From positions 1 through 21,028 of the IMG/VR virus record IMGVR_UViG_3300042887_000702: a DNA stretch of 21,028 nucleotides. One strand, written 5' to 3'. The stretch's first letter is position 1; every line of letters begins with the position of its first letter. The position numbers and the translations under genes were made by a program. This document shows, one piece after another, positions 1 through 3,301 of this stretch. This DNA comes from a virus. The notes under the pieces were generated by a model. The model searched no databases. It was not told the origin of the DNA and saw only the letters and a list, made by a program, of their open reading frames with translations.

Positions 1-395
1 TCAAAAAATAAATCATCCGACCTTTGAGTTGAGTCTGAATATGTCTTTACTCTGCCCCAACCTTTTTCAACAAGGCCTGCGGTCGAGAAAGATGAGCAGG
101 GTGGCGATCCCTCTAATAAATCTAGTTTGCCACGTTCCATATTTATATCTTTGAGAATGTCCGCGCCCGATACGGTTCTAATATCCTCGCCCGTAAGGAT
201 TACCCCGTTATGGTTTTCGGCATAGGTATCTCGTGCGGCCTCGATAAATTCGTTTGCCCAAAGTACGTCATAGCCCGCCATCTCTAATCCAAGACACGCG
301 CCACCGCATCCAGAGAAAGTAGAAACAACTTTGATTCCGTTAGTGCCTTTAACCTTTTGAATCTCAGCCATAGACATTACAGAGTAGGTTGACAT
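1..395 (-). CDS. C5-cytosine DNA methyltransferase, N-terminal part (cut by window edge)
   Basis: Transfers a one-carbon group from an S-adenosylmethionine-type donor to carbon 5 of cytosine in DNA. The 131 residues visible include family motif I, FSGCGGACLGLE, at residues 27-38, which binds the cofactor, followed by the acidic residue at E49. Motif IV, GSPPCSSFS, is at residues 96-104, with the catalytic cysteine at C100. The target-recognition region and motifs VIII-X lie beyond base 1, so target site and donor choice cannot be read. The start ATG follows the stop of the CmoA-like gene directly (TAA then ATG, no spacer), so the two are almost surely co-translated. I infer the pairing means the donor could be carboxy-SAM. 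An ordinary self-protection or orphan 5mC methyltransferase is the alternative. The family call is firm. Confidence 0.93.
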   Translation of the reverse strand, partial: MSTYSVMSMAEIQKVKGTNGIKVVSTFSGCGGACLGLEMAGYDVLWANEFIEAARDTYAENHNGVILTGEDIRTVSGADILKDINMERGKLDLLEGSPPCSSFSTAGLVEKGWGRVKTYSDSTQRSDDLFF

Positions 396-1091
396 TTATT
401 TAATGCCGATCCACGCTGCGAAATTTAGATTGCGCCAGTAGCACTCTATGTGTTTAAATCCCGCTTGCTTTAGCATCTCAACATTCCAGTCTGCGGTTAC
501 GGGAACTAAGACACCCTCAAGTGATCTACGCTTTGCCGCGATCTGATCCGTGCTGTATCCGTTCTCACCCTTGCGATCATAATAAGTTTCGACAAGCAAG
601 CGATCACTAAAGGCATCTGCGCCTAAAACTTTTTCAACTAATAAGAACGCACCGCCATCGATCGTATTGTCATAGGCGTTCTGGATAATTCGTTGACGAT
701 ACTCAATAGGAATGAATTGCAAAGTTAGAACAGAGAGAGTTACGGATGCTTGCACATTCGGATACAAATCCCGTAAATCTAAATCGACAATTTCGGCCTT
801 GCCAGTTAATTCTTTTAACGCTGCCGCCCGCATTGGTTCGCTTACTTCAATGCCCAAAAAATTTAATTTCTTTTTAGTTGCTTCGATAATCGGCTTTAGT
901 GCCGCGCCACGGGAGCAACCAAGATCAACAACATAGGTTTCATCCTGAATAAATCTCAAGGCCAACTCAGTTGTAGTTCGCCGCATTCCAAAGTAATCGG
1001 GAATGGATCGTTCTAACATATCGTCAAAGACAGCCGTGACCTCATTATTAAATTCCCATTTACCAATCGGCATCGTTCGATCAGTAGGCAT
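396..1091 (-). CDS. cmoA: CmoA-like carboxy-S-adenosylmethionine synthase
   Basis: A class I SAM-binding protein resembling CmoA, which converts SAM plus prephenate to carboxy-SAM. From the ATG at 1091 it has 231 residues; E. coli CmoA has about 247. It aligns from memory along its length: a W-x-F near residues 12-14, ERSIPDY at 27-33, cofactor loop DLGCSRGAA at 56-64 (E. coli DLGCSLGAA), TLQF at 123-126, GGAFLLVEK at 146-154, ENGYS at 176-180, and KRRSLEGV from 187. R188 sits where E. coli Arg199 contacts the carboxylate. The C-terminal AGF...NF block also matches. A longer start at 1112 exists, but 1091 forms a TAATG overlap with the ParB-like gene. The cytosine methyltransferase follows with zero gap. 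No CmoB-like gene is visible, so tRNA modification is the less likely use. A plain methyltransferase remains possible. Confidence 0.85.
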   Translation of the reverse strand: MPTDRTMPIGKWEFNNEVTAVFDDMLERSIPDYFGMRRTTTELALRFIQDETYVVDLGCSRGAALKPIIEATKKKLNFLGIEVSEPMRAAALKELTGKAEIVDLDLRDLYPNVQASVTLSVLTLQFIPIEYRQRIIQNAYDNTIDGGAFLLVEKVLGADAFSDRLLVETYYDRKGENGYSTDQIAAKRRSLEGVLVPVTADWNVEMLKQAGFKHIECYWRNLNFAAWIGIK

Positions 1092-1591
1092 TATCGTGCC
1101 GCGCCGTTCCATTCATAAGAACACTTAGGGCATTGAAACTTTGTTTCATCCGTATCATCGAAACTTGGAAAGTCTTTAAGCGGTGATTGTTCCTCTGTTG
1201 GTGGGTGCAGGGACTCAAAACCGAACTCTGAAAGTTCCCAACCGTTCGCATCTAATTCTAAAAGTTGTTCTTTCAGAATCTCTGTATCCCATTCGGCTAG
1301 TTCTGCGGTTCGATTATCCGCTAATGCGTAGGCCTTAATCTTTTCAAAATCCCAACCAACAGGTGTTCTTGTAATCACGATCTCTTGCCAACCAAGATTT
1401 AATGCGGCCTGTAAAGTTCCGTTGCCAGCGATAACAAAATTATCAGGCGTGACAATAATCGGCTTACGTTGTCCGAATAACTTTAGTGAGCCAGCAATTG
1501 CATCTAGGTTTTTCTTGTCGTGCTTTCGTGCGTTGCTTGGATCAAGTTTTAATGTTTCGATTTTTACGGATTCAATGCGCAGTTCATTCAT
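1091..1591 (-). CDS. ParB/Srx-fold domain protein with C-terminal zinc-ribbon half
   Basis: 166 residues. Residues 5-98 look like a ParB N-terminal domain: a start strand (VKIETLKLDPSNARKHD), a central helix with an FGQRKPIIV strand, then the nucleotide-site loop IAGNGTLQAA at 54-63, the position of the GHGR-type motif of ParB proteins. In phages and mobile elements such domains are often fused or adjacent to DNA methyltransferases rather than acting in partition. The tail carries one CPKC pair (C154, C157). Its stop overlaps the CmoA-like start (TAATG), tying it to the modification cluster. No Shine-Dalgarno site precedes its ATG; a -10-like TATGCT lies six bases upstream. Role in targeting or activating the modification enzymes is inference. 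Confidence 0.8.
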   Translation of the reverse strand: MNELRIESVKIETLKLDPSNARKHDKKNLDAIAGSLKLFGQRKPIIVTPDNFVIAGNGTLQAALNLGWQEIVITRTPVGWDFEKIKAYALADNRTAELAEWDTEILKEQLLELDANGWELSEFGFESLHPPTEEQSPLKDFPSFDDTDETKFQCPKCSYEWNGAAR

Positions 1592-1766: not shown

Positions 1767-2084
1767 CTATGGATTTGTGATTGGTTTGTTGCCTCGTGAG
1801 GCATTACATCTTGCGTGAGCAGGCATAAGGACAGACCCCTTGACCCCTGCAAGTACGTGGTCTGCTTGTATCTCAGATCGATCTGTAAACGGTTCATTAC
1901 ATAGCCAGCAGTGTGTAGCAAATTGTTTTATGAGTTTGGCTTGCCGCTTGTAACTAGAGTCATAAAGTGTTCGCTGCGCTTTCCTGGCATTAACTTTGGC
2001 ATCAATAATTGCTTGGTGCTTCTCGCATCTCGATCCAAGTCTTGTCAGTTCGCCGCAATCTAAGCACGGCTTCTGGAATCCCAC
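1767..2084 (-). CDS. HNH endonuclease
   Basis: About 105 residues from a GTG at 2084. The nuclease core is visible: a zinc-knuckle pair C59/C62 (CWLC), the DH dipeptide at 75-76 of the first strand, then H90 and C93-N94 (AHARCNASRG). A further N-terminal zinc-binding set is C7, C10, C20 and H23. An ATG at 2126 would add 14 residues, but these lie entirely inside the upstream gene. The GTG has GGAG seven bases upstream and overlaps the upstream stop as TAGTG, the coupling style of this genome, so I prefer it. Free-standing HNH proteins in phages act in packaging, as homing enzymes or in host-DNA cleavage; which applies here cannot be told, and no terminase is in view. Confidence 0.82.
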   Translation of the reverse strand: MGFQKPCLDCGELTRLGSRCEKHQAIIDAKVNARKAQRTLYDSSYKRQAKLIKQFATHCWLCNEPFTDRSEIQADHVLAGVKGSVLMPAHARCNASRGNKPITNP

Positions 2085-2638
2085 TACACACTCCGATAGG
2101 CGCGACCCGTATGGTCTGACACCCACCTGTCAATTGTTCCTCTTGTATTTGGATCGTGCATACTTGCTACCTGTGCCGCGTGTAATGCAGATAGATCGTG
2201 GTTCTTATACCAATCAGGGTTGTATTGACTATGCGCTAGAACTCCCAATGCTAACTCTGCGCCTGATCCGATTGCCCAATAAGGTTCGGCAGATAACACA
2301 GATAGGTTCTCGCCCACTAAGAATGACTTGCCGTGCGTAACAAGTAGGCACTCTGCATCCATCTCTGAGTCTTTGATCGTATTGTCAATTAACGGAATAA
2401 CTTTAGTTACTATCCACTTCAACCATTCGCCTGACTTAACTACTTCGATTGGTGGCTTAGGGTATTCAATCGCATACTGTAACTGATCGCATAACCTTGC
2501 GTTGCCTGCGACTCCGATTAGCCAACTATCTTGATTAACTATCTTTTGCATATCAGGATGAATCAAGTCGCTTGTGATTCCACGGTCTGCAACTAAGGTT
2601 GCCTTGTTGTTTCCCGTAGTCGTGATGATCGTAGTCAT
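2084..2638 (-). CDS. HslV/proteasome-beta-like Ntn hydrolase
   Basis: 184 residues with the layout of the HslV/20S proteasome beta fold. Thr2 would become the N-terminal nucleophile after Met removal (MTTII; E. coli HslV starts MTTIV). LVADRGIT at 15-22 supplies the conserved Asp (D18), and QKIV supplies the lysine (K32) near the position of Lys33 of the family. SWLIGVAGN follows as in FAGG. The late helix AIGSGAELALGVLA matches the family AIGSGG...A block. No HslU-type ATPase is near. The substrate is unknown; degradation of a host defence or regulatory protein, or processing of a phage protein, are guesses. No ribosome-binding site precedes the ATG, but a TANNNT box lies six bases upstream. 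The downstream HNH gene overlaps its stop. Confidence 0.75.
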   Translation of the reverse strand: MTTIITTTGNNKATLVADRGITSDLIHPDMQKIVNQDSWLIGVAGNARLCDQLQYAIEYPKPPIEVVKSGEWLKWIVTKVIPLIDNTIKDSEMDAECLLVTHGKSFLVGENLSVLSAEPYWAIGSGAELALGVLAHSQYNPDWYKNHDLSALHAAQVASMHDPNTRGTIDRWVSDHTGRAYRSV

Positions 2639-2764: not shown

Positions 2765-3045
2765 TAATCATCCCAACTGTTCTTAAGAAATCCCTCTGCC
2801 TTACCCTGCGCGGGGTTCTGAGTAATAAACGTATGACAAGGCCGACAAAGCAACGCTAGGTTTTCACGATCCGTAATGCTCCCGCCTCTAGCGCGGGTTT
2901 TAATCTCGTGAACATCCGTGGCATAGGCCGTAGCGCAACGCTGGCAGGGTGGGAAGTCGCGCAGTAGTTCGGATACCAACTTGCGCCGTTCGGTCGCGTA
3001 GAGTGCCGCTCTGCGCTTAGATCGAAATGGAATCGGTTTAGACAT
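2764..3045 (-). CDS. HNH endonuclease
   Basis: 93 residues forming a compact HNH nuclease. A basic N-terminus (FRSKRRAALYATERRK) precedes C34/C37, then the catalytic DVHEIK with H46, the N at 62 in DRENLALLC, and CRPCH with C67, C70 and H71. This order, C-x2-C, H, N, C-x2-C-H, is the classical zinc-stabilised HNH core that cleaves DNA. The ATG overlaps the stop of the zinc-ribbon gene by eight bases (ATGTCTAA). It sits in the early recombination cluster rather than beside a terminase, so a role in DNA degradation, repair or homing is as likely as packaging. Confidence 0.88.
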   Translation of the reverse strand: MSKPIPFRSKRRAALYATERRKLVSELLRDFPPCQRCATAYATDVHEIKTRARGGSITDRENLALLCRPCHTFITQNPAQGKAEGFLKNSWDD

Positions 3046-3301
3046 TAAAGACAGTATCCCGAACTATTGCTATGCACCTTAATTTCATTACGTCCATTCC
3101 TAACTTCTCGCTTGGATCGTCATAAGGAATATCTAGTGCGGCGATCCGTTCCAGTAGTGTGTCACGGTACGCGTTAAGACTTACGTTCCGATAGCAACGC
3201 GGGCAAAGGTAGTAGTGGCGTTGTAACTCAATTACTTCCCACCACCCCTCTGTTTCTTTTGATTCCCGCTTACATTGATTGCACTTATTTTTCGATGCCA
3301 T
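3038..3301 (-). CDS. Zinc-ribbon small protein
   Basis: 87 residues from the ATG at 3301, which has GGA eight bases upstream; an ATG at 3325 would extend further into the preceding gene. Two CxxC pairs, C7/C10 and C33/C36 (CNQC and CPRC), form a probable zinc ribbon. The rest is a helical segment with no recognised domain. It overlaps the membrane-protein gene upstream by 17 bases and the HNH gene downstream by 8, so it belongs to the same polycistronic unit. DNA, RNA or protein binding are all possible; function unknown. Confidence 0.7.
   Translation of the reverse strand: MASKNKCNQCKRESKETEGWWEVIELQRHYYLCPRCYRNVSLNAYRDTLLERIAALDIPYDDPSEKLGMDVMKLRCIAIVRDTVFNV

Follow-up and report, generated by a model that had tools for sequence, protein, structure and literature searches.

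A compact ParB-CmoA-CmoX cassette predicted to make 5-carboxymethylcytosine in a phage of a probable actinobacterial host

Three consecutive phage genes, encoding a ParB-like protein, a CmoA-like carboxy-S-adenosylmethionine (Cx-SAM) synthase, and a CmoX-type C5-cytosine transferase, very probably form a DNA-modification cassette that makes 5-carboxymethylcytosine (5cxmC) via Cx-SAM. The evidence comprises gene identity, gene order, an Arg residue in motif X of the transferase, the linkage of this Arg to CmoA among relatives, and a closed phage map in which there is no recognizable ligase. Work by others on homologs has established the two enzyme reactions as well as what the Arg does, and by analogy the enzymes of this phage are predicted to act in the same way. 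The cassette is thus a new, compact, and apparently ligase-free member of the known CmoA-CmoX system.

The window analyzed here is the whole record IMGVR_UViG_3300042887_000702 (21,028 bases), which ends inside the C5-methyltransferase gene. The cassette genes all lie on the minus strand and are as follows, in order of transcription.

1091-1591, minus strand: ParB-like protein, 166 amino acids (aa), first cassette gene (PF02195, E 0.0012; phrog_620, E 2e-35; ParB/Spo0J structure profile, E 1e-8)
396-1112, minus strand: CmoA-like carboxy-SAM synthase, 238 aa (TIGR00740, E 7e-44; phrog_4752, E 1e-71; 4GEK, E 9e-30)
3-395, minus strand: CmoX-type C5-cytosine carboxymethyltransferase, 5' part, 131 codons, including the SPPC motif (PF00145, E 8e-17)

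The end of the ParB gene overlaps the start of cmoA, and the cmoA stop codon is directly followed by the methyltransferase start codon (ATT AAA TAA ATG TCA), as described in an earlier note made from the raw sequence. IMG/VR contig 3300044568_000569 (31,536 bases) shows 99.98% identity to the window over the full length of the latter. Because a further contig, 3300042887_000820, overlaps both ends of this 31.5-kb contig at >99.9% identity and spans a 1,266-base gap, the phage map closes at approximately 32.8 kb, which is what a circularly permuted genome would give. The Pfam families in the map include structural, replication, WhiB, HNH, RusA, SSB, and glycosyltransferase genes, and the presence of two WhiB genes suggests that the host is probably actinobacterial. 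Relative to contig G002, the dN/dS values are 0 for ParB, 0.03 for CmoA, and 0.06 for CmoX, indicating strong purifying selection and therefore real genes. Elsewhere, the early gene region encodes a proteasome/HslV-like protein (window positions 2084-2638; phrog_1040, E 1e-19), and three genes between the major capsid protein and the head-tail connector (L278:8234-10847) encode at least one glycosyltransferase (PF13692 and PF00534) and two glycosyltransferase-like neighbors, with a probable role in virion decoration.

The assignment of CmoA next to a C5-methyltransferase, first made in the earlier note, is borne out by the match to Escherichia coli CmoA (4GEK) and by the DLGCSRG and ENGYS motifs. 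The match to the carboxy-SAM synthase model TIGR00740 spans the full length, but its score of 150 bits lies below the equivalog cutoff of 193, a point against the assignment. The gene end previously placed at position 1091 corresponds to the second Met, a start that would give 231 aa. An Arg does align with E. coli Arg199, the carboxylate-binding residue, as had been claimed (R195), but we rejected this residue as a diagnostic of CmoA because the proven CmoA of Synechococcus phage S-B43 carries Glu and a close relative carries Lys at this place.

The methyltransferase, recognized earlier by its FSGCGG and GSPPCSSFS motifs, is likewise confirmed by the PF00145 match of the window piece. Its second half was read from the 99.98% identical contig 3300044568_000569 (L001:5718-6806) and not from the window's own record, giving a complete protein of 362 aa that also contains the SPPC catalytic motif. 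The earlier note had suggested checking whether, in this remaining part, a basic residue stands where Asn is usual, and Arg332 was found there. Motif X reads ERIGRSVPPLM, with Arg332 at the place of M.HhaI N304 and M.MpeI N374, and the protein does not match the ordinary C5-methyltransferase signature, in which motif X has Asn (GNSVPP). The best solved-structure match of the full protein is 8YF3 (SpCmoX; E 8.8e-63; residues 21 to 351), followed by M.HaeIII (E 1e-22). Identity to SpCmoX is only 38%, and in the 8YF3 alignment Arg332 falls on SpCmoX Arg350.

This system has a characterized counterpart. Yang et al. (Nat Commun, Dec 2025; PMC12783734) reported that the CmoA of S-B43 makes Cx-SAM and that its CmoX (8YF3) transfers the carboxymethyl group to cytosine C5 in GC motifs, yielding 5cxmC. 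In SpCmoX, Arg350 replaces Asn304 of M.HhaI and binds the carboxylate of the carboxymethyl group, and the wild-type enzyme uses only Cx-SAM (PMC12783734). SpCmoX-treated DNA resists HhaI, an evasion of restriction seen in vitro only, and a further enzyme, CmoY, adds glycine, so that native S-B43 DNA contains only the glycine amide (PMC12783734). The same study collected 5,615 phage CmoX proteins by the SPPC motif and the Arg, noted ParBc neighbors in other phages, and described an engineered M.MpeI variant, N374K, in which exchange of the Asn of motif X for a basic residue enables a C5-methyltransferase to work with Cx-SAM (PMC12783734). Our literature search found no other paper on Cx-SAM in phage DNA. 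The earlier proposal that the phage makes its own Cx-SAM to carboxymethylate cytosine is supported by Arg332 and by the chemistry of the S-B43 homologs (PMC12783734); its mechanism was correct in kind, but its novelty does not stand, since Yang et al. had already reported the S-B43 pair.

The window's phage resembles S-B43 in having a CmoA homolog, a neighboring C5-methyltransferase homolog with SPPC and the Arg350 equivalent, and no CmoB. It differs in the lack of a CmoY-type ligase match, in the presence of ParB, in the divergence of its CmoX, and in its size and gene content (approximately 32.8 kb with WhiB genes, unlike the 214-kb cyanophage). Streptomyces phage TurkishDelight (NC_073473), which likewise has a CmoA homolog and whose host is actinobacterial, has a CmoX with the motif ERIGRAVPP that is approximately 50% identical to that of the window, but its genes follow a different order (ParB-CmoX-AsnB-CmoA), in which CmoX and CmoA are separated by a gene of the glutamine-amidotransferase/asparagine-synthetase type. 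As in M.MpeI N374K, a basic residue replaces the motif X Asn in the window's CmoX, although here it is a natural Arg and not an engineered Lys in an enzyme that targets CG. The CmoA itself has the fold, sequence, and Arg199 equivalent of the E. coli CmoA-CmoB tRNA wobble pathway, yet its partner is a DNA methyltransferase homolog, and no CmoB-type family was found in the map.

The Arg and CmoA are tightly associated among relatives. All seven aligned CmoX proteins linked to a CmoA or CmoA-like gene carry the Arg (these include the window lineage, TurkishDelight, Moraxella phage Mcat8, S-B43, and Pseudomonas phage PaBG), and Asn occupies this place in motif X of an Aphanizomenon phage homolog that lacks an annotated CmoA next to it. 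We then surveyed 160 loci of viral contigs and bacterial genomes, retrieved with a CmoX profile; three of these loci were unreadable at the motif X position. CmoA accompanied 107 of the 114 Arg forms (four of the seven exceptions are cut at a contig end) and none of the 43 Asn/Met forms; the loci were not thinned for relatedness, and these counts therefore overstate how independent the association is. The Arg rule for Cx-SAM use thus holds across the surveyed relatives and independently confirms a prediction made from raw sequence. A separate arrangement occurs in Staphylococcus phage vB-SscS-F1 (L035:4980-7498), which encodes CmoA together with a CmoY-like protein and with a C5-methyltransferase in which motif X (VVGGVINQ) lacks Arg at the expected place; to judge from this motif, the enzyme possibly binds Cx-SAM in a different way.

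In the proposed mechanism, CmoA would convert SAM and host prephenate to Cx-SAM, and Arg332 of CmoX, in place of the usual Asn, would form a salt bridge with the carboxylate and so select Cx-SAM over SAM. Cys100 would then attack cytosine C6, and the carboxymethyl group would land on C5 to give 5cxmC in phage DNA. ParB, the constant third partner, would probably help in DNA targeting, and the presumable purpose is protection from host nucleases.

Whether 5cxmC is the final base bears on the strongest alternative. The closed map makes free 5cxmC a plausible end product for the window's phage because it holds no CmoY-type amide ligase: neither the 31.5-kb contig nor the overlapping closing contig has a CmoY or AsnB (asparagine-synthetase) profile match, and no ligase family occurs among the 25 of 26 Pfam families covered for the map, a comparison that covers recognizable ligase types only. 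A related phage (G003) likewise has no CmoY/AsnB profile match in 26 kb, and among the 42 CmoX loci flanked by ≥4 kb on each side, a nearby ligase is absent in 28. The carboxymethyl group could instead be a mere handle, as in S-B43, on which a host enzyme or an unrecognized phage enzyme builds an amide or other hypermodification. We give this alternative a considerable, although minority, share of the probability. It is favored by the S-B43 precedent, by the CmoY or asparagine-synthetase-like gene in the other 14 of the 42 loci (e.g., TurkishDelight and PaBG), and by the glycosyltransferases and many unknown proteins in the window's phage map; the ligase searches of the closed map speak against it. 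The window's phage may therefore be a compact, ligase-free version of the system in which free 5cxmC could occur as a native base.

Two further alternatives fare much worse. That CmoA mainly drains SAM or blocks SAM-dependent defense, with the CmoX neighbor being secondary, is very improbable: SAM depletion by phage CmoA was raised as a possibility in PMC12783734, but cmoA directly abuts the CmoX gene in a recurrent gene order, and the CmoX Arg fits Cx-SAM. Still less credible is an ordinary SAM-dependent 5-methylcytosine enzyme beside a CmoA serving host tRNA wobble modification, since, common as both parent families are and although the curated names read methyltransferase, motif X has Arg and not Asn, wild-type SpCmoX accepts only Cx-SAM, Arg and CmoA are linked in the survey, and, as noted earlier for the window, no CmoB-type family appears for the phage map among the 25 of 26 Pfam families covered for 50 open reading frames.

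The ParB gene, which was absent from the earlier description of the cassette, falls below the curated cutoff of PF02195 (19.3 bits; cutoff, 26.3 bits). Its product ends in a conserved two-cysteine motif, CPKCxYEWxG; the same C terminus is found in five relatives, and the ParB of TurkishDelight carries the same motif (CPRCEYTWSG). A cassette-ParB profile found ParB in 41 of the 42 loci that combine CmoX-Arg with CmoA and have flanks of ≥4 kb on each side, for which reason the published count of 1,660 ParBc for 5,615 CmoX (PMC12783734) may be low. Since ParB is also common next to Asn/Met-type enzymes, it appears to accompany DNA methyltransferases of phages in general, with a probable role in DNA targeting or loading on DNA.

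When 296 genomes of the Streptomyces phylum were sampled, just one contained a CmoA above the cutoff, indicating that a phage infecting such bacteria would have to bring its own Cx-SAM supply. The prephenate for the window's CmoA is from the host. Chorismate mutase makes prephenate, the cosubstrate of CmoA, and a small chorismate mutase (PF01817) lies within the cassette in approximately 20 related loci, all of which have CmoX-Arg and CmoA except L273 (damaged CmoX).

L139:8706-9795, viral: chorismate mutase cassette with DAHP synthase
L072:4944-5198, viral: chorismate mutase in the cassette
L073, near 3040-3292, viral: chorismate mutase in the cassette
L065:4204-4509, viral: chorismate mutase in the cassette
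L210-L221, L225, L228, L230, L231, and L273: further chorismate mutase cassettes

The DAHP synthase of L139 directly follows CmoA, and another lies nearby in L103. Outside the viral loci, these cassettes occur in prophage-like regions of Verrucomicrobia. On the basis of gene context, chorismate mutase and DAHP synthase may constitute a phage-borne prephenate supply for CmoA, which bears on a point left open in the published work, i.e., the origin of prephenate. Our literature search found no report linking phage chorismate mutase with CmoA, and we know of none. In L073, CmoA and chorismate mutase at first seem to be fused, but this reading was discarded because the long frame, apart from its C terminus, does not share the reading frame of cmoA. 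The Verrucomicrobia genomes of L214 and L228 (G012 and G013) contain five to six CmoA-like matches each, and the L228 cassette sits among phage genes (terminase and portal); several related prophages thus appear to coexist in these genomes.

CmoA is also linked to a second gene family. Approximately 50 CmoA loci without CmoX carry a ParB-fused protein (phrog_5475, of unknown function). When this family was searched with itself, CmoA was found in all 71 viral loci (16 lineages) and CmoX or a ligase in none; in an earlier overlapping set, CmoA was present in 116 of 116 loci. Copies lie at the following positions.

L146:5874-7388: ParB-fused protein
L037:702-2237: ParB-fused protein, Gordonia phage Evaa
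L275:3929-5485: ParB-fused protein, Pseudomonas phage SM1
L276:1032-2624: ParB-fused protein, Aeromonas phage HJ05
L357-L496: further loci of the family

Full-length copies occur in fourteen phage records, with CmoA adjacent in all three that were opened (Evaa, SM1, and HJ05), and a tblastn search with CmoA also matched the SM1 group. An AlphaFold model built with 17 diverse sequences (pLDDT, 86; near-identical sequences gave 47) shows a ParB domain and a class I methyltransferase domain, and its nearest neighbor in the aligned set is METTL6 (Z, 13.7), a tRNA m3C enzyme. On the strength of this model and the CmoA linkage, the family is a candidate second Cx-SAM-dependent DNA-modifying transferase, and a concrete one for carboxymethyl transfer outside cytosine C5. 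We also advance, tentatively and at somewhat under even chances, a broader picture in which 5cxmC is the finished base of the window's lineage, uncapped and negatively charged in virion DNA; ParB is a working subunit of a minimal ParB-CmoA-CmoX cassette; and phage CmoA is a plug-in cofactor module serving two or more DNA-modifying transferases of unrelated families, namely CmoX and the ParB-fused METTL6-like proteins. Two distant cassettes of the ParB-fused family (L146:7385-7837 and L037:2633-3115) have in common a HAD-like phrog_32036 protein, annotated as a phosphatase in Evaa.
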